Notes under the pieces: generated by a model
Databases searched by the model: none
The model's input: the letters and a program-made list of their open reading frames with translations, nothing else
Told to the model about the DNA's origin: nothing
Program-made: the position numbers and the translations under genes
Origin: an uncultured Alphaproteobacteria bacterium
GTDB lineage: Bacteria > Pseudomonadota > Alphaproteobacteria > CAAHEQ01 > UBA3637
DNA: 48,488 bases
NCBI GenBank assembly: GCA_949292205.1
Contig: CASEYR010000010.1
Location: 1 to 48,488, forward strand
Direction: 5' to 3'
Shown here: one piece after another, positions 2,576 through 43,322 of the stretch
Position numbering within the stretch: position 1 is the stretch's first letter
Layout of the letters: every line of letters begins with the position of its first letter

Positions 2576-4768
2576 TTATCCTTTCATTTTTGTTTCTATA
2601 TCCTCTTCTATATCAAATATATCACCCTGCATCAAGGATTTTAAAGCAGCCATATCTGTTTCTTCACGTTGAGCAACAATCCAATAAGGCACAAAAGGGG
2701 CAGCTGGCAAAGAGCATTTTTTACGCATTCCTTTATCCATATACCAACGCGGAGCATCTGCCATAATCGGGCGATTTAAAAAGCCCTGAAATAAAACCAC
2801 TTGCTTTAACATATCCAAACTCATCAAGGTTGAAGCCCCCACCACATTTGAACTCTGCAAAGAACGAGACACATTCGCAGCAAATGGATTAGTCTGCATA
2901 GAAACTCCTTCTGTACGAGATGAGCTAGCCACCTCAATTGTCTTAGTTCCAATCATCTTTGAAAAACGTTCTGCCGTCTGCTCATTGTTTTGGGATAAAA
3001 TAACTTTAGCTGCTGTTGTTGTAATAATTGTCTCTAAGTCATCTTTACCATATTGTCCGGAAATCTGTCCCAAATCCTGCCCAATCAACAAATAGGACAC
3101 CTTTTGACCACGACCAACGGCCGGACCATCTTTAACGGCAGCCAATTTTGGCATCTGAGGAAACTCGTCAAGAACAAACAATACCGGATAAGGACCGGAT
3201 TTAATACCATCCGACCCAACGAAATTCGGAGGATTAGAAATCAAGAAAGAACTCATCAACTCAACAAAAACACCGGTAATAACATTCAATGTTCGAGCAT
3301 CGACCTGATTAACAGATAAATAAACAGATATCGGTTTTACCTCTCCCGTAATCGGATCCATCATACCACGCAAGTCACGGAAAGTTAAATCACTAAACTT
3401 TGTCCGAGAACGAACGGCTGAGTTTTTAAAGATGTTAATTCCCGAAAAAGCTGTTGATAAGATAGAGCCACGCTCCTTATCCGGCGTTCCGGCCAACTGA
3501 CTCAATTCAACCGTAGCACGTCTGGCGTATCCGAAACGCTCACTTTCTGCAATAGCCAGTTTAAGAGCATCTGCACCGGCATCGGCAAATGCCGCTGCCT
3601 GATCCCCCTCATCAGCTCTCCGCTTTAAGTCGGCATTGATTTTCATCTGAGTATCTGTCCACCAATCAAAAATCATAGCGATACAAGGTTCAGATCCCTG
3701 CCAACTTTCCGGTAATCCCTCCCAAGTTCCGACAGGAGCATAATTATCAGAAGTCAACTTACCCTCTTTCAAGGCATCCAAAGCTATCCGAGCACTCGGA
3801 TCCGTCATATCCAAATAATATGTTTCTAAAACCTCGGCATCTTCTTTATCGAAAGATCCTTCGCTTAATTTTGAAGCGAAATAATCATTGGCACGAGCCC
3901 GCTCGCATTTGCTACAAATAAAGTGTAAAAAACCAGACATAGCATTACGCCCCGTTTTTGACCAGTGAGGATCTGCCCCGCCCTTTGGCTCTTCAACCAA
4001 AACTGCAACCATAGAGTCAATATACATATCGCGCCCCGGTCCCAAAGGTGGCAAACAAGAGGGTGATAGTGGATTCCAGCTAGGATAATAAATCCCTTTA
4101 TCAGGATCATCCTCCGCCCCCCAGTTAATAACAAAAACAGGGCCCTGAGTCGCACGATATCCTGATGTGTTATAACATAGTTCTGGCTTTGGGTCGTTAA
4201 TAATCAGACTCAATCCCGGAGACTCCAGAATAGTCGGAATAACGACACCAACCGTTTTACCGGTTCCCGGAGGCGCCACAACCAAAGCAGACAATGTTTC
4301 CGGCATTTTTAACAATTTTCCTTTAAAACGCCCCAAAACAATAACAAAGCCATCAAACAGCTTCATTTTTTTAATATCGGCATATTCAGCCATACGACCA
4401 CCGCCAAAAACATTCGGCATATATTTATACGGATTGGTAATAATCCGAACAACCAAAAAAATCATCGGAATAATAAAAGCCAAAAACGGCAGATACATAC
4501 TATAATTTGTTCGAGATGAAATTTTAAAAACCGCATAATAATTACCAAATGCATTTAGCATAGCACTGGGACTGAAAATGGTTTTTTTCCAAAATGTCCA
4601 AGCTGCACTTAATTGAGCAAAGCTGAATCCTTGCTGAATCCAGTTCGTCATCGGCAACAAGATCATTAACAAAAACCAAAAAATAATAATTGTCCAAACA
4701 ATACTCCAACCGACCCAAGCGATAAACTTACCTTGTTCTTCGTATGCTTCATCTCGTTTAAATGCCAT
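2576..4768 (-). CDS. virD4: VirD4/TraG-family T4SS coupling ATPase
   Basis: A 730-residue protein. Two N-terminal membrane segments (about residues 16-40 and 92-112) precede a Walker A motif, APPGTGKT (165-172), and the VirD4/TraG-type segment NDPKPELCYNTSGYRA. Walker B is VLFVLDEFPQM near residue 530, followed by GRGQKVSYLLIGQDLGQI. These are the hallmarks of the hexameric type IV coupling protein that recruits substrates to the channel at the inner membrane. It is VirD4/TraG-like rather than DotL-like. It sits 20 bases after a two-TM protein and is coupled to the HELIH protein downstream. It lies in the same locus as virB8-virB11, though a J-domain gene and an RHH gene intervene. The ribosome site is AAGAGG. 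No relaxase is nearby, so DNA transfer is not implied. Confidence 0.93.
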   Translation of the reverse strand: MAFKRDEAYEEQGKFIAWVGWSIVWTIIIFWFLLMILLPMTNWIQQGFSFAQLSAAWTFWKKTIFSPSAMLNAFGNYYAVFKISSRTNYSMYLPFLAFIIPMIFLVVRIITNPYKYMPNVFGGGRMAEYADIKKMKLFDGFVIVLGRFKGKLLKMPETLSALVVAPPGTGKTVGVVIPTILESPGLSLIINDPKPELCYNTSGYRATQGPVFVINWGAEDDPDKGIYYPSWNPLSPSCLPPLGPGRDMYIDSMVAVLVEEPKGGADPHWSKTGRNAMSGFLHFICSKCERARANDYFASKLSEGSFDKEDAEVLETYYLDMTDPSARIALDALKEGKLTSDNYAPVGTWEGLPESWQGSEPCIAMIFDWWTDTQMKINADLKRRADEGDQAAAFADAGADALKLAIAESERFGYARRATVELSQLAGTPDKERGSILSTAFSGINIFKNSAVRSRTKFSDLTFRDLRGMMDPITGEVKPISVYLSVNQVDARTLNVITGVFVELMSSFLISNPPNFVGSDGIKSGPYPVLFVLDEFPQMPKLAAVKDGPAVGRGQKVSYLLIGQDLGQISGQYGKDDLETIITTTAAKVILSQNNEQTAERFSKMIGTKTIEVASSSRTEGVSMQTNPFAANVSRSLQSSNVVGASTLMSLDMLKQVVLFQGFLNRPIMADAPRWYMDKGMRKKCSLPAAPFVPYWIVAQREETDMAALKSLMQGDIFDIEEDIETKMKG

Positions 4769-7130: not shown

Positions 7131-8120
7131 TCAAGTAATCTCTGTAACAGCCCGAATATTACCATCTCGATTAATTTGAACAACGCGTAATTTTTCATGC
7201 ATTTCTTTTAAAGTTTTTTCACGATCAGTCGTCGGATATGAATGCAAAATACGTCCCAGAAAAGATTTATAAGCATCTTCTGCCGAATTCGCATGAATCG
7301 TAGCAAAACAGTTCTCATGCCCTGTATTCATCAACTCCCATAAAGCACCGGCATTTTGGACTGAAATTTCCCCCCCCAAAATAGCATCCGGAGTAAAGCG
7401 AACAACCAAGTCAATAACTTTTTTATAATCAAAGTCATTTGTTTGCTCTGTTCTGGACAAAACCAGATGAACTCTATTTTTATGAGGAACAATCAACTCC
7501 CGAGTATCTTCAATTGTTAAAATACGCTTATGCTCATCTAATAATTTAATCATATTATTTAAAAAAGTCGTCTTACCGGTTGCCGTTCCACCACTAATCA
7601 AAATATGATCTCCACGCTTTACAGATAACAACAACCGCTCATATGGATCATCCGGATCCTCAACACCTTTTAACTTGTTGATTTGACGCAATCTGCCACC
7701 TTCTTCTACGCCAAAATCCGTTATGCCAATATCCAAATCTTCTCGATACACACGGATATCCAAAGCCACACCACCCGTCAAATCATTATTATCATAAATA
7801 ATATTACGACCGGCAATACCCGTAAAACGATGCCCCCCCGGTAATGTTGCATACACGGCAGGACTTCCGCTTTGAGGATCAAAGGATAAATCATAGGTGT
7901 TGGCAATAATATACAAGATATTATTTAAATACTCCCGAGTTAATTTAGGATCCTCATAATAGTGCCACGGATAAGCGTGACGCCCTCGCAATCTCAACCA
8001 AATTCCACCGGGATTATTAACGGCAACATCTTCTACATTATCTTGATTATACCAGTATGCCAAGGGACGCAAAGCCGATTCAAGAACCCGATATGTGTCA
8101 ACAATAGATAGCGTCCCCAT
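7131..8120 (-). CDS. virB11: VirB11-family T4SS ATPase
   Basis: A 329-residue traffic ATPase. The N-terminal domain begins VEDVAVNNPGGIWLR (residues 29-43), the VirB11 pattern. Walker A is GGTATGKTT (177-185), the Asp box is LTIEDTREL, the Walker B/His-box region is PDAILGGEISVQNAG, and the end is TGHENCFATIHANS (267-280). The usual Arg after GGE is Ser here. VirB11 forms a cytoplasmic hexamer that works with VirB4 and VirD4 to power pilus assembly and translocation. It follows virB10 by 18 bases in the same operon, with ribosome site GAGAGG. A DotB identity was considered, but the virB8-B9-B10-B11 order favours VirB11. Confidence 0.93.
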   Translation of the reverse strand: MGTLSIVDTYRVLESALRPLAYWYNQDNVEDVAVNNPGGIWLRLRGRHAYPWHYYEDPKLTREYLNNILYIIANTYDLSFDPQSGSPAVYATLPGGHRFTGIAGRNIIYDNNDLTGGVALDIRVYREDLDIGITDFGVEEGGRLRQINKLKGVEDPDDPYERLLLSVKRGDHILISGGTATGKTTFLNNMIKLLDEHKRILTIEDTRELIVPHKNRVHLVLSRTEQTNDFDYKKVIDLVVRFTPDAILGGEISVQNAGALWELMNTGHENCFATIHANSAEDAYKSFLGRILHSYPTTDREKTLKEMHEKLRVVQINRDGNIRAVTEIT

Positions 8121-8138: not shown

Positions 8139-11100
8139 CTAAAATATTCTGGCAGAGGATTGTTCAGACTTAGGTAAAATCGGTTGAACAACCCTATTTT
8201 CCAAATTACTATCAGTGTTAGCTGTGGGTTCAGTATCAGCATTTATCACATTTTCATCTACCGGCGCTGTATCAACACCGTTATAAATCGGAGGAACATT
8301 AACGGCAGAAGATATATTCGGATCATAATATTGTGTCTCATACTCGGTTCCTATAGCTTCACCGACAGGTCCGTTTACGGCTCCAACACCGGCGCTATCT
8401 GCTGCCTGCAATACCTCTCCCGTTCGATTTGCAATCCAGTTCCCCTGTGAAGCCCCTTGAACCTGTTTAGACAATCCACCGAATTGAGCATCATAATCTT
8501 GCTCATCCTCCACCTCAGTTCTCAACCACAAATCTTCATTTGAGAAGACGGTCATCCGAGTTCCGGCAGGGACAAATACAACAGGTTTAATACTTGTTGC
8601 TTCTTGCAGCAGCTGTTGGAAAATACCATCCATAGAATCCAAGAAGTTACTCCGAGCATCGCTAGCAGCCTGACTGCGAGAACTTTGAGTTGTTGTTCCA
8701 TCACTTTGATTTGTCGTGACATCATCATTAGTTGCTATCGCGTATGCAACGGCAGAATCCAACAATGTTTGCATAACCGGTTTACCATATTTCTGGATTA
8801 ACTGTTCATCCAAATACGCAGCCACACCACCACGACCTTGAGCATCACCGGACTGAGCCGAAAACTTAAAGGCAGATCCATCCGGACGAATTAAACGTTG
8901 CCAAGAAATTTCCAACTTAGCGACATGATTTTCACCACCATTTCCAGCGGCCTGTCCGATTAAGCGACTACCGGCGGGAATAATGATATTACGTCCTTCT
9001 TCTGCATAAATATGACGCTCAACAATCGCCGTAACCGGAATATTGGTATATCGAGAATCTATCGAATGAACCAGAACTGCCGGTATAGCTTTGTCTTTCA
9101 AAATCATCCGAGACATATCCACCGGATAGCTGGATACAATCTTGGGTTCTCCCCAATCCATATCTTTCTTCTGACGAGCTCGCGCCAATGTCCGTCCATC
9201 CGGTTGTAATCTACTAAAGGACTTAATTTTTTGACGCATATTCTGACGTCGTTGAGCTAACAGTTGTTGCATTTGTTGCAACTGTTCAGGGTGAGTTTCA
9301 ATCTTTTTATCCAAATTAGGACGAACACGACCTTGAGCATCAGCACCACCAACCAACAAGCGATTATCCAAAGAATACGGACGTCCATCATCTCCCATAT
9401 ACCCGACAACCGTACCGTCCTGATCAATCAAAGATCCCTTTGGAGTAATTTCAAAGACTTTGTCTCCGATAAAGATACGTCGACCGGAAACTCCTTTTTG
9501 TCCCATTCCGACACCAGGAATTAAACCATTCAAACGAGAATCCGTCCCACCAATACTTCCAAAACCATTACCGGTATCTCTGGGAATATGGCGTCCAATT
9601 AAGTTTCCTTCGGCATCATAGACATTTCCTTGTGCATCAATACGCCCCAAATATGTTCCATCATTCGTGTACATATTTCCTTTTTCGTCAATGTAACCGA
9701 TTTGATTGCCATACTTATCATAGATTTTACCACATTTTATCGTATAGAGCAAATTACCGTTCTTATCCCGCACATCTCCATTATACTGGGCATTTTGACA
9801 CTCGGTACTATTTCCCAAGGAAACAGATCCGTCCGAATTAATTTGACCGATCACATTACCATTGGCATCAACGATTGTTCCATCCGGCATAACCTTTCCG
9901 ATAACCTCACCGGCAGCATTAATCAGATCACCCTTTCCATTAATTAAGCCTAAGAAGTTACCATCAGCATCTCGCAAGACACGTAATTGATCCAGCTCAT
10001 TTCCGGACATATCCAACAAGCGACCGTCCTCTGTCAATGTTGCAATTTTCTTACCTGAAACAGGATCAATAATATCACCGTTTGATAAAACTTGGAATTG
10101 AGCTGTTCCATCCGGAGACTTGTATAACCCATCACGACCAAAGGTTCCGGCGATACTACCGTCAGCATTGAACATCAGTTCTTCATCCGGAGATACCGTC
10201 CGACCGATAACATTACCATCAAAATCAACCATAGTCCCTTTGCCATCACCTAAAACTTTACCAATAGCAACGCCATCTTTATTCACAACAGTTCCGTCAA
10301 ATTTAACACGCCCTAACGGATTCCCATCTTTATCTAAGACAAGACCACGCTCCAAAACATGTCCGATAACATTGCCGGCATTATCGACGACAGATCCATC
10401 ATTCCGAGCACACCCCATATTGATACCTTTTGTATCAACAACGGTTGAATCCGGTAAAGTCCGACCCAAGAAGTTTCCTTCGGGAGATAAAACGGCACCG
10501 ATGCGAACGACGCGACCAATCTGCCGATCAGAATTATCAACCGCCCACTTATCTGGAGTAATGCGACCGACAACATCCCCACGACCATTAATCACCTGAC
10601 CATTAAAAGATGTTTGACCAACAACTTTACAATCATTGACTACCAACTGCTCCGGAATCAAAGCGCCTAAAATTTTCAACTCATGATTGCCCTTAACCGC
10701 TCCGTTGACAGCAATCTGCCCTGCTTCCTCTCCGGCAAAAGAAACTACTTTCCCTTCGCCACTCAAAGAACCCAAGACAGTTCCATCATGACTTGTTGCC
10801 GGATTAAATGATAAAACAGCACCCTCCAACGGTAATTCTTTTCCAAGAATCGTACCATCATCTAACATCCGATAAACTTTTTTATCCGAAGCATCTAAAA
10901 TATCCCCACCAAGAGTTGTTCTACCCAAAACAACATTTTTGTAGCTAAAGGGCAATCCCTGTTTTACGATATGTCCCGCATACGGCATAGTTGTGAACAT
11001 ATTTCTATCCGCAACACCGACAGCTGTTCCGTCTGACATAATTCGCCCCATTAACATATTATCTCTACCGACAATACTACCGTCCAATGTCACAGAGCCA

Positions 11101-14100
11101 ATATCATATCCATCATCGTTAATAGCCATTCCCATCGGTATAGCTCCACCGGCCCACAGAGAATCAACTGTTAATGCCGATCCGAATGGCATATACTCTG
11201 CCAACTTTTTTCCATCTCCGCTGACAACCGTTGCGGTACCAGAGCTTCGACCGATAATTGCGCCATTTCGATCAATAAAGGTTTTAGGGGCAAAAATACC
11301 ACCGCTAAAAGAACCTTTTGTATTGTATACAGCGCCAATTCCACTTCCCAAAGCAGATCCCGTCACAATACCATCTGCAACTGTTTGCCCTGTTACAATC
11401 GCCTGTCCCATAACATTCAAATTCGTGGTAATAGGCAGTCCGACTGGAGCAAAACCACCAACAATTTTCTTTGTTAGATCAGACACAAGACCATTCATCA
11501 TCAGCTGCCCAACCGCTTTACTGTCAACCATACCCATGACAGAACCATTTAAACCGGACATGCCAAGCAAACGACCAGAAACACTATCATTAACAGCCAA
11601 ACTATCCGCCATTAATCGTCCGACAATAACACCATTATTAATCGCAAACTTATTATTAAACAGTGATCCCTGTGTCTGCCCTTTATGATCAACAACCGAT
11701 CCCGATCCATCAACCAATCCTAAGGATGATCCGTCATTTGTCACAGGCACACCCAATGGAATATAAGATCCAACAACCGTTCCGTTGGGTTGAATAACTT
11801 GCCCATCTAATGTTACGCGACCAACAATCTGTTTTCCATCTTCAACAGCTCCATCATAACGCGTCCATCCGATTATTTGACCATCCGCATTAACAGCAAT
11901 ACCCGGAGCTAATATCTGCCCAACAACACCACTTTGCCCATCCGACACGAATCTGGATGCATTCGTGGTTGCCAAAGCCTGACCGGACGCACCAATAACT
12001 TGACCATTTGGTGAGATTGCTCCCATCAAAGAACCATCAGAAGTCACAACAACACCATGATGAATCAATCCGCCCATGACATTGCCGTCTCTATTAAGAG
12101 CAACGCCCGATATTGTTACCGAACCAATAGGATTTCCGCTTAAATCATTTAAATCGCCTTTAAAAGAAGTCCAACCGATCAACTTTCCGGATAAATCCAG
12201 ATAAGGACCAATCCGAACCAACCGTCCGATAATATCACCCTTTGTTCCGATAACGGCTCCGAAAGGAGAAATAACTCCAATTTGGCGTCCTCTCTGATCG
12301 TTGACAGTTCCACGATATGTTATAGACCCCAATACGCCATGTGCCCCAACCGGCAAAGAAATCTCAGGATAGACACCACCGATAACCCGATTCTCATTTG
12401 ATACAACTACCCCATTCGCCAATACACGACCAATTTTTGTCCGAGCCGACGAAATGACATCTCCTTTTTCCGTAACACTACCCAATTCCTGACCGATAAC
12501 AGATAAAACCATACCTTGAGGAATACGAACACCGATAGTTTTTCCAGAACGATCTACCACCGTTCCGTCTGCACGAATAGCGCCCAAGACTTCACCGGCC
12601 GATCCCACTAACAACCCATCAACAGTCATAGTTGCCATATACAGTCCGTTCATATCCATAAACGAAGTCTTATCAGGAATTAAAGCACCAACAATCGTAT
12701 TTTTATCCCCATTCAAAACGGTCATATCCGGCAACACAACACCAAAACGTTCTCCGGCCAAATTAACCGCCACACCTGTTTTTTGAGAATACCGCCCCAG
12801 AATTAAACCGTCATGTGAAAAGATGACACCATCGGGCGGAATGACACCGATAACATTTCCGTTTTTATCGGTTACCCAACCATTTGGTTGTAAATCACCT
12901 ATTTTATTGCCTTGCGCATCAAAGACCTCATTTCCAACAACCGTCCAATTCGTCGGATTGCCGTTTTCATCCAAAATAACACCATTGTGTTTGGATTTAT
13001 CTACGACACGACCGATAACTGTTTTACCGTCTAATGACGTTACGGTTCCATCCGGATTGACACAACCGATAACCTTGCCGTTCAGGTCAATTACTTTACC
13101 GTCCAACCGCACACGACCGATAACCTTGCCGTCATTTCCGACAACTAAACCTTTTTGAGCAACTGAACCGATAACCTCTTGTTGACGGTTCACAACTTGC
13201 CTTTCGGGTGTAACACAACCAACGCTCATCCCCGCTGCATCAACAACTTGACCATCCAAAGTAATTAAGCCCAGCAAGCGACACCCTTCTGCGATAGCCG
13301 TACCACGCGGGATCACAACGCCAATAATACGGTTATTTGCATTTGTTACATATCCATCCGCCATAACGCGCCCGATTGATTCCACGGTTGCGTTCATCAC
13401 AGAGCCATCCGGATAAACAGATCCTAAAACTTGACAGCCCTTACCAATGACGCGTCCACGAGCCATAACAGCTCCAATTACCTTTGAACCGGCCGAAACA
13501 GTTGCATCTGCATTAACACATCCGACAACCGAACCTTTTGCGTCAACAGCCTTTCCTTCAGAATTAACAAATCCCAACAAGGTGCCTTTTTCACTAATAA
13601 CCAATCCCTGTGTTACAGCCGTTCCGATTTCAGTTTGCTTTTCATCTACAACGGCACCATCTAATAAAACCTTACCGACGATCTGTCCAAAGCTGTCTTT
13701 AACCTCTCCATTCAATAAAATCTGCCCCAAAGACTTGCATGATGCAGCGACAGCAACTCCTTGAGGAATCACACCACCGATTAATTCACCACTGGGATCA
13801 ACTGCCAAACCGGTCGGTTTAATCGTTCCAATAACTTGTCCGTCTGCATTAACAATACTGCCGTCCGGAATAATACCGCCGATCACGTCTCCGGTGAAGT
13901 TAATCACCAAGCCCCAAGGTCTCAATGACCCAATCACGGCACCTTCTAAATTAACAACCGATCCATCAACCAAAGGACGTCCGATAACCGTATTGGCGCC
14001 ATCAACAACAGTTCCGTCAGGAAGAACCTTTCCGATAACAAGCCCTTTATCATCCATAACAGAAACGACCGGCAAAGCTGCCCCCAAAACCTTTAAAGAG

Positions 14101-14981
14101 GAATCAACAATCGTATCATCTTGCAACAAACGCCCCAGTCCAACACCATCAGCCGCCAACACATCACGACTTGGAGAAATTGTCCCTAACAGCTTATTAT
14201 CCATACCCATCGGAATTTTATCCGGAGCAACAATACCGACAATTTTACCATCTTTATTGATTAACAGCCCATTCTCGGTTACTTTAATTTTTTCACCGTT
14301 AATAGTAACGGTACCATCATCATCAACCTCATGCAACTGTCCATCCAATCCCATAGCAACTTTCTTTTCGAGAACATCTTCGTCCTTACAAGGACTTTCG
14401 CAAATGACACAATCCTTAGAATCTGTAGACTGAGCCTTAATCTGAACAGATAAAATTTCCTCACGAAAAACAGATGGACTATCTTCCTTCCAGCGAATAT
14501 TCAAAATATTTTGTAATTGACGCAAAAAGGTGGGATTCCACAGTAACTTAACATTACAACTTTTATCTTGCTCAATTTTTAAATTCGGCGTACAAGTTCC
14601 CTGTATAGAGAATCCATCAACCTGCTCTTCGGCAAACTCCATACCGATAAACTCAATCGGGGCATTTCGGGCAGTTAAAGTAACGATTGCCTCCGCCTGA
14701 GACCCCAACACAACACCGTCCATGTTAACCGACGCAGGTTGAGCCTCCAACGAGGCACTCCCACGAGCAAAACTAGCCCCCTCGGCTTCATTTTTAACGG
14801 CCAGTTCAAAATCTGCTGAATTCCAATCTAGTTGTGGAGCCTGAGGGGCAGTATCCTCTCGCCCAGACATAAAAATCAAAGCAACAACAAACAACACCAA
14901 CAACCCCAACCCCAAAAACAAAAGTTTGCGGTTGCTTCCCTTTGCATATTGCTCAGACGAGCTTAATCCTCTGCCACTCAT
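8139..14981 (-). CDS. virB10: Giant repeat-bearing VirB10/TrbI protein
   Basis: About 2,280 residues, against roughly 380-480 in typical VirB10. I prefer the ATG at 14981 (site GGTAGGAT) over a TTG two codons upstream. The order is: short cytosolic N-terminus; one TM helix (about 20-41); a beta-rich Ig-like segment (about 85-185, with paired Cys); a Cys cluster near 193-200; about 1,650 residues of 17-residue repeats (see 9380-14375); a Gln/Arg-rich helical linker; then the TrbI/VirB10 fold (about 1958-2155), with PAGSRLIGQ, RLIRPDGSAF, a helical antenna-like insertion and VVFVPAGTRMTVF; and a polar tail of about 125 residues. VirB10 spans inner and outer membranes and gates the core complex. 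DotG of Legionella and CagY of Helicobacter are also repeat-expanded VirB10 relatives. The gene lies between virB9 and virB11. Confidence 0.92.
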   Translation of the reverse strand: MSGRGLSSSEQYAKGSNRKLLFLGLGLLVLFVVALIFMSGREDTAPQAPQLDWNSADFELAVKNEAEGASFARGSASLEAQPASVNMDGVVLGSQAEAIVTLTARNAPIEFIGMEFAEEQVDGFSIQGTCTPNLKIEQDKSCNVKLLWNPTFLRQLQNILNIRWKEDSPSVFREEILSVQIKAQSTDSKDCVICESPCKDEDVLEKKVAMGLDGQLHEVDDDGTVTINGEKIKVTENGLLINKDGKIVGIVAPDKIPMGMDNKLLGTISPSRDVLAADGVGLGRLLQDDTIVDSSLKVLGAALPVVSVMDDKGLVIGKVLPDGTVVDGANTVIGRPLVDGSVVNLEGAVIGSLRPWGLVINFTGDVIGGIIPDGSIVNADGQVIGTIKPTGLAVDPSGELIGGVIPQGVAVAASCKSLGQILLNGEVKDSFGQIVGKVLLDGAVVDEKQTEIGTAVTQGLVISEKGTLLGFVNSEGKAVDAKGSVVGCVNADATVSAGSKVIGAVMARGRVIGKGCQVLGSVYPDGSVMNATVESIGRVMADGYVTNANNRIIGVVIPRGTAIAEGCRLLGLITLDGQVVDAAGMSVGCVTPERQVVNRQQEVIGSVAQKGLVVGNDGKVIGRVRLDGKVIDLNGKVIGCVNPDGTVTSLDGKTVIGRVVDKSKHNGVILDENGNPTNWTVVGNEVFDAQGNKIGDLQPNGWVTDKNGNVIGVIPPDGVIFSHDGLILGRYSQKTGVAVNLAGERFGVVLPDMTVLNGDKNTIVGALIPDKTSFMDMNGLYMATMTVDGLLVGSAGEVLGAIRADGTVVDRSGKTIGVRIPQGMVLSVIGQELGSVTEKGDVISSARTKIGRVLANGVVVSNENRVIGGVYPEISLPVGAHGVLGSITYRGTVNDQRGRQIGVISPFGAVIGTKGDIIGRLVRIGPYLDLSGKLIGWTSFKGDLNDLSGNPIGSVTISGVALNRDGNVMGGLIHHGVVVTSDGSLMGAISPNGQVIGASGQALATTNASRFVSDGQSGVVGQILAPGIAVNADGQIIGWTRYDGAVEDGKQIVGRVTLDGQVIQPNGTVVGSYIPLGVPVTNDGSSLGLVDGSGSVVDHKGQTQGSLFNNKFAINNGVIVGRLMADSLAVNDSVSGRLLGMSGLNGSVMGMVDSKAVGQLMMNGLVSDLTKKIVGGFAPVGLPITTNLNVMGQAIVTGQTVADGIVTGSALGSGIGAVYNTKGSFSGGIFAPKTFIDRNGAIIGRSSGTATVVSGDGKKLAEYMPFGSALTVDSLWAGGAIPMGMAINDDGYDIGSVTLDGSIVGRDNMLMGRIMSDGTAVGVADRNMFTTMPYAGHIVKQGLPFSYKNVVLGRTTLGGDILDASDKKVYRMLDDGTILGKELPLEGAVLSFNPATSHDGTVLGSLSGEGKVVSFAGEEAGQIAVNGAVKGNHELKILGALIPEQLVVNDCKVVGQTSFNGQVINGRGDVVGRITPDKWAVDNSDRQIGRVVRIGAVLSPEGNFLGRTLPDSTVVDTKGINMGCARNDGSVVDNAGNVIGHVLERGLVLDKDGNPLGRVKFDGTVVNKDGVAIGKVLGDGKGTMVDFDGNVIGRTVSPDEELMFNADGSIAGTFGRDGLYKSPDGTAQFQVLSNGDIIDPVSGKKIATLTEDGRLLDMSGNELDQLRVLRDADGNFLGLINGKGDLINAAGEVIGKVMPDGTIVDANGNVIGQINSDGSVSLGNSTECQNAQYNGDVRDKNGNLLYTIKCGKIYDKYGNQIGYIDEKGNMYTNDGTYLGRIDAQGNVYDAEGNLIGRHIPRDTGNGFGSIGGTDSRLNGLIPGVGMGQKGVSGRRIFIGDKVFEITPKGSLIDQDGTVVGYMGDDGRPYSLDNRLLVGGADAQGRVRPNLDKKIETHPEQLQQMQQLLAQRRQNMRQKIKSFSRLQPDGRTLARARQKKDMDWGEPKIVSSYPVDMSRMILKDKAIPAVLVHSIDSRYTNIPVTAIVERHIYAEEGRNIIIPAGSRLIGQAAGNGGENHVAKLEISWQRLIRPDGSAFKFSAQSGDAQGRGGVAAYLDEQLIQKYGKPVMQTLLDSAVAYAIATNDDVTTNQSDGTTTQSSRSQAASDARSNFLDSMDGIFQQLLQEATSIKPVVFVPAGTRMTVFSNEDLWLRTEVEDEQDYDAQFGGLSKQVQGASQGNWIANRTGEVLQAADSAGVGAVNGPVGEAIGTEYETQYYDPNISSAVNVPPIYNGVDTAPVDENVINADTEPTANTDSNLENRVVQPILPKSEQSSARIF
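9380..14375 (-). repeat. Protein-coding tandem repeats, about 90 units of 17 residues (51 bp)
   Basis: Inside virB10 the protein repeats roughly every 17 residues with the pattern x-x-G-x-V-V-[DN]-x-x-G-x-V-I-G-x-V-x. Examples are PDGSIVNADGQVIGTIK and LDGKVIDLNGKVIGCVN. The count of about 90 is length divided by period, not an alignment. Units are diverged at both DNA and protein level, so this is not a simple DNA tandem array. Alternating beta-branched residues and Gly/Asp turns suggest a beta-solenoid. The register blurs towards the C-terminal end. Confidence 0.85.
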
Positions 14982-15005
14982 ATCCAATCCTACCTTTTGA
15001 TAAAA

Positions 15006-16739
15006 TTATTGAACCCGAATTACCGAACAAGAAAAACCACGACGCCCCAGCTTACGACACAAAGCATCTCCGGCCTTAACACTTTTCATCGGACCAACAC
15101 GAAGTCGGAACAATTCACGAACATCGCCATCTGCCGTTGCATCGACAGAATAATACGGTTCATACCCTTTTAAGATATCTTCATTTTTAGCGTAAATTTG
15201 CTCCCAAGTACTTTCAAGTTCAGCAATATTTGCATTCGTTCCCAGCTCCACGGAAATAACTTCCTCGACATTAGCTGAAACACGTGTATTCTGACTCTTT
15301 GATACACTCTGCTGGCTAGATGTTGATGAAATCTGATTAATAACACCAACGATACCGGAGTTTGCAGATGGAGAGTACAGGACAGAAGACGGAATTGTTT
15401 GAATCGGAGTCATATTCTGCTTTTGAGCATTCATTAACACATTATAAGCATCATCGGAACAATCCACTTCACATTCTTCAACTACTGTATTCTGATTTTC
15501 GGTCAGAATAGGTTGCCCCTCCATCGTCAAAGCAGCCTGCTTACGCGTCAGTAACTCATCTGTTGTCTGGTTCTTTCCTTTTCCGCCAGCGGACACTGCA
15601 TTATCCGGTTGTGCCGGAGCATGCCATGAATCCGCACGCGATTCCGAACCGCTATAGTCCACCCACTCCAAGCCTGAAGCAGGATCCCGACGAAGTTTCA
15701 AGCAAATAATCTTTTTCCCGTTTCTCAACACCAAATCACCAACAGCCTCAACAACAATTAAACGACTGTTCGGTCCGCGCGTTCTAAATCCAACCGGAAC
15801 CTCTGAATCTTGAACGATCAGATTAACAACAGGTCTCTGAGTCATTGTCAAAGCCTTTGGTCCCAAATCAATGTACGTAAAGATATTATCACGCCAGACA
15901 TTATCCGGAGCAATATCAACATCTTCCGGATTCGGGAGATACATATCAATATCGAAACGGAAACTTTCCGGATCAACCGGAATAGACTTCAACCAATCCT
16001 TAGGACCTGTCGAAGCTGTACTCAATCCGATTTGAGGATTTTGAGCACCACCCGGCGTCAAATTGCCACGTCCAGACCAGCCCGGCGCCGAAAAACCGCT
16101 GGCAGCCGTAGAGGAGGCTGTGGCCGTGGCTCCATTAAAATTTCCAAGGGTTCCTCCTGCAGAAACCGGCGTATAACGCGGACCAACCAGAACATCCACA
16201 ACCGACTGTGTAATTTTATCTGTATTATACGTTTCACTCCGCAGATAAAAGACATAACGGTTACCCGAACGTCCAAAAACGATCATATTACAATCAACCC
16301 CGATATATGATGGATCTGCATATAGAAGAAGAGAGTTCGGAGCGGCAATTTCACCACCAAAAGACTCCGGAGAACCAATATGGACTTTTTCAATCAACTC
16401 CCAAGAAGGCAGGTTAATAAGAGTCATCATACCTTCTCTCAAACGAATCGGCAAAATAACATCCGGAGACCAGTTATAGCGAGAGTAACCCGGCTTTAAC
16501 TGACCTTCACCCATATGGGACAAAGGATCATTCCATGCTTTCTGTTGCATACCCAAAGAATGTATATATCCCAAGTTTACCTGATCAAACTCTCCCGTTG
16601 TTTGAGCAATAGCATCTTCCAACTGAGCCGCCTCCGTATCCGTCGGCAACATTTGTTGCGCTTGCGCACTTACCGTCATTAAAACCATCAGGCTGATTGC
16701 CCCCAACCATTTCATTTTTTGAGTTTTTTGTGTTACCAT
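15006..16739 (-). CDS. virB9: VirB9/TrbG-like outer-membrane core protein with C-terminal SPOR domain
   Basis: A 577-residue protein with a signal peptide ending in VSAQA-Q. The N-terminal VirB9-like domain (about 85-185) includes YSRYNWSPDVILPIRLREG and NRYVFYLRSE. A Gly/Ser-rich linker follows (about 200-250). The VirB9 C-terminal domain (about 285-355) has IFTYIDLGPKALTMTQRPVV and GDLVLRNGKKIICL, the region that binds VirB7 and VirB10. After a further linker, residues 505-577 read as a SPOR domain (FRLRVGPMKSVKAGDALCRK, then FSCSVIRV). SPOR domains bind denuded peptidoglycan glycans. The ribosome site is GGAGAA. A usual VirB9 is about 250-300 residues. The gene is followed by virB10 and preceded by a 124-base gap after virB8. 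Confidence 0.9.
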   Translation of the reverse strand: MVTQKTQKMKWLGAISLMVLMTVSAQAQQMLPTDTEAAQLEDAIAQTTGEFDQVNLGYIHSLGMQQKAWNDPLSHMGEGQLKPGYSRYNWSPDVILPIRLREGMMTLINLPSWELIEKVHIGSPESFGGEIAAPNSLLLYADPSYIGVDCNMIVFGRSGNRYVFYLRSETYNTDKITQSVVDVLVGPRYTPVSAGGTLGNFNGATATASSTAASGFSAPGWSGRGNLTPGGAQNPQIGLSTASTGPKDWLKSIPVDPESFRFDIDMYLPNPEDVDIAPDNVWRDNIFTYIDLGPKALTMTQRPVVNLIVQDSEVPVGFRTRGPNSRLIVVEAVGDLVLRNGKKIICLKLRRDPASGLEWVDYSGSESRADSWHAPAQPDNAVSAGGKGKNQTTDELLTRKQAALTMEGQPILTENQNTVVEECEVDCSDDAYNVLMNAQKQNMTPIQTIPSSVLYSPSANSGIVGVINQISSTSSQQSVSKSQNTRVSANVEEVISVELGTNANIAELESTWEQIYAKNEDILKGYEPYYSVDATADGDVRELFRLRVGPMKSVKAGDALCRKLGRRGFSCSVIRVQ

Positions 16740-16863: not shown

Positions 16864-17568
16864 TTAATCCAATAATTGCATTCTAAACCGATTAACAACA
16901 AAGCCCAGAGGATTTTTCAATCTTTGTTCCCAACGCAATCCCTCTCGCAAAGCCCCGAAATCAATTTCCATCAACACAGACCACTTTGACCGCTTCGGTT
17001 CACTCATATCCAGCTTCATATCAACCAATTCCACCTCAGCTTGCCATGTGACACCCGCTCCTTGAGCCGGGTAAACCGAAGCATTTAAAATACGAACATT
17101 ACGCGTTAATCCCTCTTTTTGAGCCTGCTCCAACAAGGCTGGAGCTGTCCGCAAAAACTCTTGAAAAACAGCACTTCCGCTCATCCACTGAACGGCCCCC
17201 TCCGTTCCCCACCGTCGCTCTAATTCATTCGTATCCGATCCGATTCCCAAACGTGCCACCAGATATTGCCTAACAAATGACTCCTGCAAATCCTTAGAAG
17301 ATAAAGTTGAAGCAGAAGGGCGCCGAATTGTAATAATTTGCTGATCCTTGTCTTGAGTTGACACATAAAACGGTTGAACCCGAACGATAGGCGTCAAAGA
17401 AAACAACGCCATCAGTAAAATGATATTAGCTAACAATGCCGCAGCACTGACAAGCCCGAAAGCTCGCGCCATCCATAGATAGCGACGTTCTTTCAAGGCC
17501 TCTTCGGATACATCTTCCACACTGCGCTCTGGATCATTATCCGATTCCATGTGTGACTTGAACTGCAT
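16864..17568 (-). CDS. virB8: VirB8-like inner-membrane T4SS protein (copy 1)
   Basis: A 234-residue protein: cytosolic N-terminus, one TM helix (about 36-57), then a periplasmic NTF2-like domain. It ends with the VirB8 signature NPLGFVVNRFRMQLLD, matching the NPLGF-x-V-x-x-[YF]-R pattern of the family. VirB8 is a bitopic protein that organises the periplasmic part of the inner-membrane complex. The ribosome site is GGAGG, nine bases before the ATG. It lies 21 bases after the VirB7-like gene, and a second VirB8-like gene lies further upstream. Duplicate VirB8 is known in the Rickettsiales vir homologue (rvh) system. Confidence 0.9.
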   Translation of the reverse strand: MQFKSHMESDNDPERSVEDVSEEALKERRYLWMARAFGLVSAAALLANIILLMALFSLTPIVRVQPFYVSTQDKDQQIITIRRPSASTLSSKDLQESFVRQYLVARLGIGSDTNELERRWGTEGAVQWMSGSAVFQEFLRTAPALLEQAQKEGLTRNVRILNASVYPAQGAGVTWQAEVELVDMKLDMSEPKRSKWSVLMEIDFGALREGLRWEQRLKNPLGFVVNRFRMQLLD

Positions 17569-17855: not shown

Positions 17856-18494
17856 CTATTTTTTTATGCTGTTGCCATTCCGAACCACATTTGTCTCATC
17901 ATATTTGGCAACAACCGTCCCGAACGGATTCACAAAATCTTTTCCAAATCCTTTATATCCTGCACCTTCGGCTATTGTAATAACGGCTCGTCGACTTTGG
18001 GGACGCAAAACCGTCATTCCGTCTTGCTTATAAATATCAAAATCAACCGTAAAAATATTCCCTTGACGTCTGACATCTAAAATATGAACACTCTGAGTAT
18101 CTGTTCTATTTTTTGAATCCGTCACGAAATCACCTTTATCTTGTATAAACTGACCATAAACCGTCGGTGAAGACAACCGCCGAACGGGTCCACCAACACC
18201 CCATCTATAAGACATCTCAGCCATATCGGGAATAAACTCAACTCTATTTTCAATATAAAACCGAATCAACATTTCTTCAATCAATTTTTTATCTCCGATA
18301 GGGGCAGAGAAACTGGTTGCCTCCAAAGCTTGTCCAAAAGTCATAACATTCGGAGTCAACAGCTGAGCCAACACACTAGCCTTCGGAGCCATATGTAACA
18401 ATGTCAAAGCAAAAAAGACATTAACAGTCATCAAACTTCCCGTAATAACCAACCACGCTCTGACAGAAAAATCAGCAAACCGGAAAGATTTCAT
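17856..18494 (-). CDS. VirB8-like protein (copy 2)
   Basis: A 212-residue protein from the ATG at 18494. The GGAGG ribosome site lies in the last codons of the upstream gene, giving tight coupling; an earlier in-frame start is unnecessary. A TM helix (about 13-35) precedes a periplasmic domain ending NPFGTVVAKYDET, a recognisable variant of the VirB8 NPxG signature. It is divergent from copy 1 (only short motifs in common), so the duplication is old or the two were acquired separately. It may form a hetero-oligomer with copy 1 or replace another bitopic component. Confidence 0.82.
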   Translation of the reverse strand: MKSFRFADFSVRAWLVITGSLMTVNVFFALTLLHMAPKASVLAQLLTPNVMTFGQALEATSFSAPIGDKKLIEEMLIRFYIENRVEFIPDMAEMSYRWGVGGPVRRLSSPTVYGQFIQDKGDFVTDSKNRTDTQSVHILDVRRQGNIFTVDFDIYKQDGMTVLRPQSRRAVITIAEGAGYKGFGKDFVNPFGTVVAKYDETNVVRNGNSIKK

Positions 18495-18495
18495 T

Positions 18496-20109
18496 TTAAC
18501 CTCCGAAAGAACCACCGTTGATACATAAAGCATCTATCGGTTTTTGACTTTCTTTTTCAATTTGTTTATCCCACTCTTGTTTTTTCGCATCCAACGCTTT
18601 GGCGGCATTGTATTCACGTAAAAGTCTATCAATATGCTGTGCATTTGTCGCCGTCAAAAAAACATGTCCATCTAAATCTTTTTTTAACGCATCAAAGGTT
18701 GCCTTATCTTGCTGAAAGACAGACAAGGTCAAAGCCTCTTTCAATTTTTCATGATAGACGGGATTGGTTTCTTGAGCTGACTGCAAAGTATCGACTTTTT
18801 CCAAACGCCTTTTTTCCTCAGTTCGAGCCCAAGCTGTTTTATAAATTGCCTCTTCTTTTTTAATTTTTTCCTCAGCGACCTTCAGTAAGGCCTCTTTCTG
18901 ATTTTTCAATTCTTTCAAAGAATCGTCAAATGATTTATCATTTGCTAAATCAAAATCATCATCCAACTTAATATAGTTACTTAAATCATCACGAACGGAA
19001 TTAACGACACGATTCGTGTTTTCATTAGCAACCTCAACGATTTTTTCAGCTCCGTTTAATTCTTTTTTTAATAATTGATAAACGGCCAATCGATTGTTTC
19101 GCTCAGAAGAAGTATAGTGTTTAGCCGATTCTTTCAATATTAATCCTTTTGAAAAATCTTCTGCCATTTCCCCTTTAGGATTAATATCTTTAAAGTTATC
19201 CTTTGCATATTCCTTCCACGGATCAGGTAGGCTTGGATAAATCTGACGCATAGGGTCATCACTATCCAAATATAACACAGTCTCCTCTTTTGGAGGCAAC
19301 GGCTTCGGAGCAATCGGAGCCTTTTTTAGGACCAACGGCAGTCCAACGGCTTTTGCCGGACTTTGAGCGACCAACATAGCAATATAAGCTTCATGGGCTT
19401 TTTCCACATCCTCATAACGTGCATAATCGTATTTTTCATCGCCGACAGCAGGACGCCCCTGAAGAGGAACACCAAAATAAGCATTTAATTTTGTGTATGT
19501 ATCATCCCATGTTTTATCAAAGACATATTTTTGATCCTCCCACAGAGGGAAAGACGGAGAGTTCTCATTTTTTCTTTCTCCCCAACTATCTTGATTTTGG
19601 TAAACATCCGTTAAAATTTCATTTCCGATAGCCCAATAAGAAAGCGTTTCCGCCAATCGCTCATCTGAAAAAGTCCCGGCTTCTACTTCGGCACGCAGCT
19701 TCTCTCTCTGTTCATCTGACAAACCTTCCGCAGAGTTAATAAAAATTGTCAGTTCTTTTTCTCGTCGATCATAGCGATTTTTCATTTTTTCCCAAACTTC
19801 TTTGGGATTTTTAAACTGCTCACTCAATCGACGAATATTACATTTCTCCATAGCCTCCATACGTTTTTGTTGAAGCTTCATATTTTTCTGAACTCTAGCC
19901 TGCTCCTCCAAGTTTGCCCGAGCCTCCCACATCCGATTCATCAGATTGTGTAAAGTCAAAGCCTTATCCAAAGCATTATTTTCCGCATCATAGAAAGTCA
20001 TAGAAGCCGGATTGACTGTCGGCATAGCATCTGAAAATTGAAGAGCACTTCCCGTCGTTGATGACAACACCACAAAACCAACCATAATCAAAACAGATAT
20101 TTTTTTCAT
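18496..20109 (-). CDS. Exported coiled-coil protein of the T4SS operon
   Basis: A 537-residue protein with a signal peptide (MKKISVLIMVGFVVLSS, cleavage near SALQ). The mature protein is highly charged and helical, with long predicted coiled coils (about 60-150 and 330-520, rich in Glu, Lys and Gln) around a Pro-rich middle (KKAPIAPKPLPPKEE). It ends in a Gly-rich tail with a single Cys. I recognise no family. Ribosome site CGGAGG. It lies between a lipoprotein and VirB8 copy 2 with gaps under 15 bases, so it should be made with the secretion apparatus. A periplasmic structural role is inferred only. Confidence 0.8.
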   Translation of the reverse strand: MKKISVLIMVGFVVLSSTTGSALQFSDAMPTVNPASMTFYDAENNALDKALTLHNLMNRMWEARANLEEQARVQKNMKLQQKRMEAMEKCNIRRLSEQFKNPKEVWEKMKNRYDRREKELTIFINSAEGLSDEQREKLRAEVEAGTFSDERLAETLSYWAIGNEILTDVYQNQDSWGERKNENSPSFPLWEDQKYVFDKTWDDTYTKLNAYFGVPLQGRPAVGDEKYDYARYEDVEKAHEAYIAMLVAQSPAKAVGLPLVLKKAPIAPKPLPPKEETVLYLDSDDPMRQIYPSLPDPWKEYAKDNFKDINPKGEMAEDFSKGLILKESAKHYTSSERNNRLAVYQLLKKELNGAEKIVEVANENTNRVVNSVRDDLSNYIKLDDDFDLANDKSFDDSLKELKNQKEALLKVAEEKIKKEEAIYKTAWARTEEKRRLEKVDTLQSAQETNPVYHEKLKEALTLSVFQQDKATFDALKKDLDGHVFLTATNAQHIDRLLREYNAAKALDAKKQEWDKQIEKESQKPIDALCINGGSFGG

Positions 20110-20121
20110 GCGAACCTCCGA

Positions 20122-20841
20122 TTAATCCTTCATCAACGATTGTGTCATTGTCATAACACCGCTCTTTTGATTACCGCCTTTTATCTGCAAGCGTTGAGAT
20201 ACAATTTGTTGTTGTAAACTTAATAACTGATCATATAAAAGACGAACATTTGCATTATCACGCAAAGCCTGATTATAATCCGTAGCGCCTCCTTTATATC
20301 CAGATTGAAAAGCACCAATTGCCTCTTGAAGATTTTTCAATCCATTCTTAATAACCAACGATGCAGCAACTAACTGGATCACCCGATCCTGTTCCTCAAA
20401 AGCTCTTTCCTTGACATATTGAGAAATAGACTCAATGGTTCCTGCCGTAGTCGTTAAAGCATCTTGAACGGTCGAAGCCAATTGCTTTGATGAAACCCCC
20501 GTATACTCCCGAGATAAGTCATCAGGCATATCCAAAAGACCCTTTGCCACTTTTTCCGTATCTTTTGATAAGCTCAATTTAATTTCAAAAATACCCAAAT
20601 CAACGGATGTATTAGCATTTTTCAAGAGATTCTGAAGTTCTGACTCTGTATCTGTATAGGCCTTGATAATGGTTTGTGCCCCAGACACAACCGATAACGG
20701 AACAGAGCTCAAAGAATCCAAAACGGGCGTTGGTTCAGGCGCCAACAAAAAGTCAATCAACAGATATGCTTTTGCCTCATAACAACCAGACAAAACCATA
20801 GCTGCGGTCAAAAAACAAGCAATTCTCTTTTTTATATTCAT
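20122..20841 (-). CDS. Exported helical (lipo)protein of the T4SS operon
   Basis: A 239-residue protein. The N-terminus has a hydrophobic core ending LSGC, a lipobox with Cys20 that would anchor it by lipid. The rest is helical with heptad-like stretches (for example LLYDQLLSLQQQIVSQRLQI near the end). The helical exported architecture resembles TrbJ/VirB5-type pilus-tip or adhesin subunits, but no diagnostic motif is visible. GGGAGG precedes the start. It is one of a run of consecutive exported helical genes here. Confidence 0.78.
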   Translation of the reverse strand: MNIKKRIACFLTAAMVLSGCYEAKAYLLIDFLLAPEPTPVLDSLSSVPLSVVSGAQTIIKAYTDTESELQNLLKNANTSVDLGIFEIKLSLSKDTEKVAKGLLDMPDDLSREYTGVSSKQLASTVQDALTTTAGTIESISQYVKERAFEEQDRVIQLVAASLVIKNGLKNLQEAIGAFQSGYKGGATDYNQALRDNANVRLLYDQLLSLQQQIVSQRLQIKGGNQKSGVMTMTQSLMKD

Positions 20842-20852
20842 CTTGAACCTCC

Positions 20853-21518
20853 CTATGGTTTCTCAAGTAATTGTTCTTCTTGCTTTAACAGCATGGAGGC
20901 AGCCTCCATTTCCATCAATCGAGCCTCCAAAAAAACATTCGCTGCCGTAATTAAAGCCAACGATTTAATCGTTTCCGTATTTAATTCTATTTCCTGAATA
21001 ATACCGCCGGCAGAACTGCTGGCCTCTTGCAATGATTTCAAATCATCAGCCGTTGATGATCGCACACCCGCAGCATATGATATAATTTCCTTTCCTAAAT
21101 TTGTTACATAAGTCTTTCTTTTATTTCGCACTTCGGCTTTCATTTCTTCTGTCACATTTGCCGCATCAGCCGGCACAAAAAATGTTTTTTTAACAAAGGC
21201 CAGAGCCTCCTCTAAACTTTCTTGTGGCGGAGCAATTTCCGCTGACGGTAAAGAGTTTGGATCATTTTGAGTCACAAAATCATATGTTGAAGCGGAAGGA
21301 GGGGTTATACTCGTTGTTCCAGTCCAGATTTCAACCTGCTCTTTTAAAGCATTATTCTTGGCCAAATTGGCTGCATATTGGCTGGTTCTTTCAATAGATT
21401 GCATTGTAAACTGCAATCCCCGAAAAACATCCAAAACCGCAAACGTAGCCCCACCTGAAACAGAAACACAAACGACAAGCATAAAGGCAATAACGACACC
21501 AATACATTTTTTCTTCAT
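20853..21518 (-). CDS. Exported helical protein, possibly VirB5/TrbJ-like
   Basis: A 221-residue protein with a signal peptide (hydrophobic to about residue 25, SGGA-TFA region). The mature part is almost entirely helical: VFRGLQFTMQSIERTSQYAA, then a short Ser/Pro stretch, then long helices ending in a Met/Leu/Glu-rich segment (LEARLMEMEAASMLLKQEEQ). This resembles the TrbJ/VirB5 layout of a helical bundle with an exported N-terminus, and the gene neighbours agree, but identity is too weak for a symbol. GAGGAGG ribosome site; 11-base gap to the next gene. Confidence 0.78.
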   Translation of the reverse strand: MKKKCIGVVIAFMLVVCVSVSGGATFAVLDVFRGLQFTMQSIERTSQYAANLAKNNALKEQVEIWTGTTSITPPSASTYDFVTQNDPNSLPSAEIAPPQESLEEALAFVKKTFFVPADAANVTEEMKAEVRNKRKTYVTNLGKEIISYAAGVRSSTADDLKSLQEASSSAGGIIQEIELNTETIKSLALITAANVFLEARLMEMEAASMLLKQEEQLLEKP

Positions 21519-21528
21519 CTACACCTCC

Positions 21529-23151
21529 TCATTCACCCTGATTCAAAACACCACCGGCAGTAATGTTATCCAAAGCGCCCATCTCTAACAACTGAGCCTT
21601 CAATGCCGTAATTGCATTATTTTTTTGAAGCGATTGAGCCGACAATCCGGCAATTTCTTTCAACATATTAAAGATATCCGATGACATTTCAATTTTATCA
21701 CTACGCTCTGCCAGTTCTTCACCCGAAGCTCCAACCAAAGCGGATGATTTCAATCCACTCCCGATACCTGAAGACAGGGCATTAATTTGCAACTGATTTT
21801 GATTTTCACGCACTTCATTAATATCTGCCGGTGTTCCCAGAATCAATTCGGCTCCGGCATCGGTTGCCTTTTTCATTCCGGCTAAAACAAGCAACGCAAT
21901 TCCCTGTTCAACTTCGGACACTTTATTTCCTACCGCTGCGACACCCGAAGCAGCCAGAGAACCCCCCCCCTCAACCACATCTTTTACGCCACCGGCAACA
22001 TCTCCGACCGTTTGTCCGACAGAACTTCCCGAAGCAACATTCCAGCTACTCTCAAGAACCTCTTTTCCGGAATCCATCTCTATTTTTGCCTGCTCCTTCA
22101 ATGGATCTAAATAACTGCCAATCCCTGAATCATTAACAACTTCCATCGCATTATGAACTCCGGATAACATATCATCTAAATTATCAGCATTTTGAATATC
22201 TGACACGGCACCACTACCCTTATTATACAGCGAGTTTGCAGAATTATAGTTTTTCTCTATCGTATCAACCATATCAAATCCACTGTCAAAGGATCCGGTT
22301 ATCCCACTTAAAGAATCATTTATCGAATCAGATAAGGATTCACCGCCACCCTCCAGCTTTGAAATCAAATCACTTCCCCCTTCTTCTGCTTTCGTCAAAA
22401 TAGACTTAATTTGACTAGGAACCGTCGGAGCCATTTCGCTGGCAGAAAGCGTTGTGACGGAAGGGACCCAATCTACAGCACTTAATGCATCCATTGAGCA
22501 AGCCTTAACCAGCTCCATATTGCGAGTCGGAGTCGTTGCCTGTTGAAATAACTTTTGTGTTGCATTTCCGATATAAGATTTTGATACATCCCCACCGCCT
22601 AACTGCTTATACAAACTTTCGGTTGCATCCACCGAATCAGCCACCGAATCGATTTTATCCGTCAACTTCTCTCCCGTCAAAGCATCTGTATAGGCCTTAC
22701 CTGTATTACTCCACAATTTTTCATTCTTGCTATCCGTTTGATTCAGAATATTTTCCAAAGAGGTCTGTTTTTTTGCCAAATCATTTAAAGAATCATATCC
22801 CGCATCAATACACTCGGAAATGTATAAATCTCCGGCACAAGAATTCGCTGCTTTAATTAGATTCTCTTTATCAACATCCATAATATCTTTATCTATTTTA
22901 TTCAAAGCCGATTTTGTACAAGTAGCTATTTGGTTTGAAATAGCATTACACATATCCGCCCCTAAAACACTGCACATGGTGTTCTTAAATTCAACAATCT
23001 GCTCCATTTTCTTAATCTGTGACATAATCTCGCTTGTATTTTTAATTTCAAGAGACAATTCCAAAGGTCCAATTGTTACCTTTGCACCCGCCGGGCACGC
23101 AATGACAAGCAATGTTAAGACACATCCTATTTTCTTTAAGTTTTTGATCAT
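21529..23151 (-). CDS. Large exported T4SS-operon protein, Ser/Gly-rich and helical
   Basis: 540 residues from the ATG at 23151, chosen because AAGGAG lies six bases upstream and the protein then begins with a clean signal peptide (MIKNLKKIGCVLTLLVIACP, cleavage near AGA-K). An in-frame upstream start is less likely. The first 150 residues contain six or more Cys, likely disulfide-bonded. The middle (about 240-420) is rich in Ser, Gly and Asp, and one hydrophobic stretch (near 440) might insert in a membrane. The size could suit a VirB6-related or TrbL-like role, but there are not enough TM helices for VirB6. Function unknown. Confidence 0.75.
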   Translation of the reverse strand: MIKNLKKIGCVLTLLVIACPAGAKVTIGPLELSLEIKNTSEIMSQIKKMEQIVEFKNTMCSVLGADMCNAISNQIATCTKSALNKIDKDIMDVDKENLIKAANSCAGDLYISECIDAGYDSLNDLAKKQTSLENILNQTDSKNEKLWSNTGKAYTDALTGEKLTDKIDSVADSVDATESLYKQLGGGDVSKSYIGNATQKLFQQATTPTRNMELVKACSMDALSAVDWVPSVTTLSASEMAPTVPSQIKSILTKAEEGGSDLISKLEGGGESLSDSINDSLSGITGSFDSGFDMVDTIEKNYNSANSLYNKGSGAVSDIQNADNLDDMLSGVHNAMEVVNDSGIGSYLDPLKEQAKIEMDSGKEVLESSWNVASGSSVGQTVGDVAGGVKDVVEGGGSLAASGVAAVGNKVSEVEQGIALLVLAGMKKATDAGAELILGTPADINEVRENQNQLQINALSSGIGSGLKSSALVGASGEELAERSDKIEMSSDIFNMLKEIAGLSAQSLQKNNAITALKAQLLEMGALDNITAGGVLNQGE

Positions 23152-23173
23152 GTGCAGACTCCTTCCGTTTTTT

Positions 23174-42715: not shown

Positions 42716-42870
42716 ATGGCGATAACTCATTTACAAATGATTATTTTAATAGAGTCAAATAGCTCCAAAATCAAACTAAGACTAACTTATGATCACTCAA
42801 TTGATATAATAGCATAATTCTTTTATTTTCATAATGTTAATATTATATAAAGATTTTTTTCATCTGATAT
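42716..42870. other. AT-rich intergenic stretch without a supported gene
   Basis: Very AT-rich and open to no credible frame. I see no RNA gene. The longer gene-free span 42671-43345 is otherwise filled by two terminators and the repeat array. Confidence 0.6.
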
Positions 42871-43290: not shown

Positions 43291-43292
43291 AA

Positions 43293-43322
43293 AAAACCCT
43301 TCCCTGTATCTGGGAAGGGTTT
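43293..43322 (-). terminator. Intrinsic terminator of tuf
   Basis: On the minus strand, AACCCTTCCC pairs with GGGAAGGGTT, followed by a T-run that ends in the repeat array. It starts 24 bases after the tuf stop. The sequence is symmetric enough to act on both strands. Confidence 0.92.

Follow-up and report, generated by a model that had tools for sequence, protein, structure and literature searches.

A recent review describes VirB10 as the only subunit of the type IV secretion system (T4SS) to form a physical bridge between the two membrane complexes (PMC12857230). In CagY, the VirB10 protein of the Helicobacter pylori Cag T4SS, the repeats are α-helical and tolerate deletion and duplication so that their number changes by recombination (PMC2581425), with disulfides that lie inside each module (PMC10706595). 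The repeats of DotG, from the Legionella Dot/Icm system, have been reported as penta-peptides and placed in the stalk (PMC7511231). β-Flowers (PF21784/PF21785), in turn, have been described as small closed barrels of 4-, 5- or 6-fold symmetry (PMC10584680). This family was named only recently and its clan is that of the Tubby C-terminal domains. Choline-binding modules and clostridial CROP repeats are built from short β-hairpin units that wind into a superhelix with three hairpins per turn; they occur in surface or cell-wall proteins and not as parts of secretion machines. The protein considered here, for which literature searches returned no publication, has features in common with each of these.

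The window that we have analyzed is a stretch of 48,488 nucleotides, in which an open reading frame on the minus strand (8139-14987) encodes 2282 residues from a TTG start, with an in-frame ATG two codons on and no internal stops. The size agrees with the ∼2,280 residues of a first-pass annotation, made from the letters alone, that had described the product as a VirB10 with a transmembrane (TM) anchor, a β repeat region and a TrbI domain, and had suggested that the repeats might span or fill the periplasm or form a surface-exposed loop; the domain description stands, while the loop is unlikely for reasons given below. A helix containing the TM segment, residues 10-40 (14868-14960; all features of this gene are on the minus strand), is supported by sequence and by an AlphaFold model (helix 9-39 in the model numbering), and because positive residues precede the TM segment the protein is predicted to be bitopic with a cytoplasmic N-terminus. 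There follow an ASH/PapD-like Ig domain with conserved Cys132/Cys144 (residues 78-188; 14424-14756), matching 6fvi with a Z-score of 13.1 and 7ptb with 12.2, and a CxxC motif (residues 193-196; 14400-14411) that is invariant in 27 species. Beyond the repeats is a TrbI/VirB10 C-terminal domain (residues 1962-2155; 8523-9104) that scores 110 bits against PF03743 (cut-off 35) and matches three VirB10 proteins from solved outer-membrane complexes, 3jqo (Z 17.6, rmsd 4.3 over 131), CagY (6x6s, Z 17.4) and DotG (9ngw, Z 15.2). With its TM helix, ASH/PapD-like domain, ∼93 repeat units and a C-terminal domain of the TrbI/CagY/DotG type the protein is a VirB10, and it is expected to work like one. The chain ends, after a disordered tail, in Phe (8142-8150 in the window); a C-terminal Phe, mostly Leu-Phe, is found in 64 of 71 giant VirB10 or split-gene B proteins (see below), and recalls the last residue of outer-membrane barrel proteins.

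The repeats have a clear 17-residue period. BLOSUM62 self-similarity is 0.301 at lag 17, whereas 300 shuffles reach no more than -0.66 at any of the lags, which were scanned up to 120; the peaks fall at 17, 34, 51, 68 and 102. Decoding with a circular profile gives 93 full units, most of them exactly 17 residues long, in line with the ∼90 first estimated, and the interval originally assigned to them, 9380-14375, corresponds to residues ∼205-1870, where they do sit. The main array is unbroken over residues 209-1722 (9822-14363) and is followed by further units at residues 1737-1802 (9582-9779) and by the last two at residues 1851-1888 (9324-9437). The consensus is G-T-V-V-D-x-D-G-x-V-I-G-R-V-x-P-D; the motif G.VV[DN]..G.VIG, by which the unit had been described, proves too strict as written and serves only as a loose description, with just 2 matches, and relaxed versions give 17 and 43, compared with shuffled means of 0.03 and 1.6. 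TRF calls no DNA-level tandem repeat within the repeats, the units being too diverged. The unit had also not been recognized from CagY or DotG; it can be recognized, since it matches the β-flower families of Pfam: Bflower_2 (PF21785) is hit in 16 stretches with E 1.7e-80 and 266.6 bits (cut-off 38), and Bflower (PF21784) and DUF3659 match as well. The likeness, far over the cut-off, includes the [DNEQ]xxG hairpin tip (PMC10584680); the difference is that here ∼93 units form an uninterrupted array with a three-unit periodicity. No other Bflower_2 protein was found in the genome.

In order to model the fold AlphaFold was run with an alignment of 27 natural homologues. The repeat region is predicted to be all β, a continuous series of hairpins with pLDDT ∼90 in which strands of ∼3 and ∼5 residues alternate in nearly every unit; the mean pLDDT is 84.5 for residues 2-1011 and values are mostly 80-90 for the repeats of residues 1344-1720. 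Thus, neither of the outcomes that had been named as speaking against a β-solenoid, the lack of a period on self-alignment or a disordered chain, was found, with the period clear and pLDDT ∼85-94 through most repeats. Direct-coupling analysis (DCA), pooled over 1394 six-unit windows, pairs columns 5-9, 4-10 and 3-11 within the unit, as in a hairpin, and columns 15-2 and 15-4 with the next unit. Only one strong long-range pair emerges, column 8 with column 13 four units on, which are the cysteines discussed below; stacking of n on n+3 beyond the cysteines is not clear in the pooled analysis. Searches with Foldseek and VIA-align found no solved structure that matches the repeats well over a long stretch, which does not in itself make the fold new; with the model of residues 2-1011 they mostly returned the ASH domain, and in a viral library the repeats matched fibres only weakly and with high rmsd.

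Superimposed on the 17-residue period is a second one of three units, or 51 residues, that runs along the whole array. Unit-to-unit similarity, with column composition removed and expressed as z relative to shuffles, is positive whenever the lag is a multiple of 3, as far as 30, and almost all the remaining lags give negative values. Hydropathy at the outward columns 2, 10, 15 and 16 depends on the phase (p 1e-9, 2e-4, 3e-6 and 9e-6, respectively), and the register is kept from the first third of the array to the last. Such a pattern would be expected of a superhelix that has three hairpins per turn and three unlike faces. As columns 15 and 2 flank the same turn, every third hairpin edge would be hydrophobic, forming a stripe along the rod.

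The cysteines obey an equally simple rule. There are four pairs, each exactly 73 residues apart, with one cysteine in column 8 of a unit n and its partner in column 13 of unit n+4: 417/490 (13518-13739), for which both residues are present in 24 species and neither in 3; 518/591 (13215-13436), both in 23 and neither in 4; 569/642 (13062-13283), which overlaps the preceding pair; and 1453/1526 (10410-10631), the last two conserved in 27 of 27. In the two variable pairs one cysteine is never seen alone. The same spacing holds in the split proteins described below and in family f74. Neighboring pairs are mostly 3, 6 or 9 units apart, and the long central gap is mostly 51 units in the family of giant fused VirB10 proteins; in f74 the long gap measures 22, 28 or 39 units, not all of which are multiples of three. 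The both-or-neither distribution is strong, if indirect, evidence that the pairs form disulfides, which would in turn place the array in an oxidizing, extracytoplasmic compartment.

Comparison with 26 homologues of 38-73% identity establishes that the number of units is frozen. Over residues ∼230-1640 (10068-14300; ∼83 units) gain or loss of whole units is all but absent, the clear exception in this core being a 95-aa insertion in L057. Differences in length are concentrated toward the ends of the array, and the stretch past residue 1640 varies between species. Conservation within the array is lowest in its middle, residues 961-1250 (11238-12107). The dN/dS of the repeats, from pairs that are not saturated, is 0.06-0.11, so this is not a fast-evolving repeat. 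The earlier parallel with CagY is a fair one insofar as both are repeat-expanded VirB10 proteins, sharing the C-terminal domain, a huge repeat insert, regularly placed cysteine pairs and a length of ∼1,900-2,300 residues. CagY, however, has α-helical repeats of variable number and disulfides within modules, whereas here the units are β-hairpins frozen in number across species, the cysteines bridge units n and n+4, no DNA-level tandem repeat is found, an ASH domain is present and relatives have split genes. Repeat-expanded VirB10 proteins have thus arisen with unrelated repeat folds, α in CagY and β here. DotG shares the VirB10-type dome domain and a repeat region, and is set apart by the description of its repeats as pentapeptides rather than 17-residue units. 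The longest intact fused relative that we have seen (L031 / L099) has 2838 residues and at least 99 units, and VirB10 relatives of ∼520-670 residues that lack these repeats occur in other alphaproteobacterial families.

At 44 further loci, which belong to a sister clade, the giant VirB10 is encoded as two adjacent genes. Gene A provides the TM segment, the ASH domain, the CxxC motif and repeats, while the product of gene B starts with a signal peptide and continues with repeats and the TrbI domain; a TM segment was scored in 40 of the 44 A proteins and a signal-peptide-like start in 40 of the 44 B proteins. A ends 33 units past its cysteine block in 37 of 40 cases, and 33 units separate the first unit of B from its cysteine pair in 33 of 36. 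The break point is therefore not random, and it lies in or near the least conserved region of the fused protein, to which B can be mapped by HMM with an ambiguity of about three units (832 by score, ∼880 by the cysteines). The number of units before the cysteine block of A is divisible by three in ∼23 of 38 full-length proteins, a tally that partly reflects decoding noise and does not amount to proof. A further split, 594+1605 in G003, lacks a signal peptide and has the look of a frameshift; it was left out of the count. A tree of the C-terminal domain has long branches and leaves unsettled whether the fused or the split form is ancestral. In the window the sequence provides a one-chain bridge between the membranes. 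In the sister clade two genes encode the two ends, so that the bridge there must be non-covalent, most simply through docking of repeats on repeats. Moreover, the signal peptide of the B proteins directly precedes the repeats, which suggests that the array is periplasmic.

On balance we think that the array is a stiff periplasmic, disulfide-stapled superhelical rod that links the anchor in the inner membrane to the pore in the outer one and has a fixed length. Columns 2-5 of each unit are predicted to pair with columns 9-12 and columns 13-16 with columns 1-4 of the next unit, so that the chain would meander unbroken as a superhelix in which each turn takes about three hairpins (51 residues). 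Successive turns would be stapled by disulfides from column 8 of one unit to column 13 of the fourth unit on. A rod of this kind would join the anchor and ASH domain to the TrbI pore domain, could hold the two membrane complexes at a set distance and may pass conformational signals between them. Its hydrophobic stripe probably packs on neighboring protomers or on VirB9, and rods aligned side by side in the VirB10 ring might form a sheath around the channel. A more specific proposal, that the superhelix acts as a periplasmic ruler and that in the sister clade, where the rod would comprise two exported chains that must dock via their repeats, VirB10 is not a one-chain bridge, we offer tentatively, as having a little less than an even chance of being correct. 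In choline-binding and CROP solenoids the rise per hairpin is ∼10 angstrom. Were this value to apply, the length of 93 units would greatly exceed the width of the periplasm, and tighter winding, folding back or reaching outside would be needed. Both the three-unit period and the n/n+4 cysteines fit three hairpins per turn as in those solenoids, although the sequence is different and the structural match, to 2g7c with Foldseek, has an E of only 0.03.

The Pfam matches themselves raise the possibility that the array is a string of separate closed β-flower barrels of about five hairpins each, as Bflower_2 is defined, arranged as beads between the membranes. The 16 stretches at 266.6 bits would fit this reading, and a disulfide from n to n+4 would close a five-hairpin barrel. 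Yet the pair 518/591 spans units 21-25 and the pair 569/642 units 24-28 of one and the same protein, so that units 24 and 25 would have to sit in two barrels; the super-period is 3 and not 5; and the AlphaFold model has neither linkers nor regular dips in confidence between barrels. We consider the barrels unlikely. A wide hollow shell or tube around the secretion channel or its cargo, formed by a spiral sheet as in Rhs/YD repeats, is suggested by the longest Foldseek matches of the repeat-rich model, which are to Rhs shells (8qjb, E 4.9e-7 over 917 columns; 5kis_B, E 7e-4 over 650 columns). With rmsd values of 30-39 and probabilities of 0.44 and 0.14 for these matches only local geometry agrees, and a narrow superhelix accounts better for the three-unit period and the n/n+4 staples, leaving the shell rather improbable.

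The report that CagY sheathes the surface filament (PMC2581425) is a precedent for a surface-exposed sheath or adhesin loop such as was proposed for its repeat region, and many carriers of the present protein are gut metagenome-assembled genomes (MAGs). The array, however, lies between an inner-membrane TM anchor and an outer-membrane pore domain, the split B proteins have a signal peptide directly before the repeats, and a frozen unit number under strong purifying selection is at odds with the variation typical of exposed repeats, so that we regard exposure at the surface as quite improbable. Variation in the length of the flanking parts of the array between species is what neutral expansion, with no role for the repeats, would produce, but the low dN/dS, the paired cysteines and ∼83 units almost without whole-unit indels in 26 species make it scarcely credible.

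For the stapled rod that we favor, one lineage with a frozen array of ∼93 units and a sister lineage in which the rod is cut offer a test of the need for a covalent bridge and of machine spacing. A two-piece VirB10 calls into question whether the cell envelope has to be spanned by a single unbroken chain, and the β-flower unit, so far known from small predicted barrels, can evidently form very long arrays.

The neighboring genes are those of a T4SS. On the minus strand are a 577-residue VirB9/CagX-like protein (15006-16739), whose SPOR-like C-terminus scores 19.9 bits, just below the Pfam cut-off of 21, and from its sequence possibly binds peptidoglycan, as well as a VirB8-like protein (16864-17568), a VirB11-like ATPase (7131-8120) and a VirD4-like coupling protein (2576-4768); virB4 is on another contig of the same genome. 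The ATPase scores 143.5 bits to VirB11 and 22.2 to DotB (cut-off 463), a further difference from Dot/Icm. Upstream of virB8 is a run of seven genes (17856-24749, minus strand) without Pfam matches, most with signal peptides, that are probable further parts of the machine; one, at 17856-18533, looks like a second VirB8-type protein.

The MAGs from which the relatives derive are titled uncultured Alphaproteobacteria, and many of them come from animal guts. In a set of 43 genomes from the order none carries VirB10 without VirB9, and six lack both (G001, G007, G011, G020, G023 and G041); in G019 and G040 VirB9 and the repeats are present and the TrbI part falls at contig ends. The first five of the six are near-complete genomes of the same family, which suggests that loss of the system has occurred more than once. 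Relaxase (PF03432) has no match over the cut-off among the 43 genomes and TrwC (PF08751) none in the genome of the window; as no relaxase of these two families was found, protein secretion is weakly favored over conjugation as the role of the system.

Elsewhere in the window an LptF/LptG-type permease, which scores above the cut-off for LptF with 235 bits, and an LptD-like outer-membrane protein are fused in a 1079-residue open reading frame (26864-30103, minus strand), an unusual arrangement in which both ends of the lipopolysaccharide export path are in one chain. A tandem array of three 138-bp copies with 92% matches (42869-43293) adjoins the EF-Tu gene.
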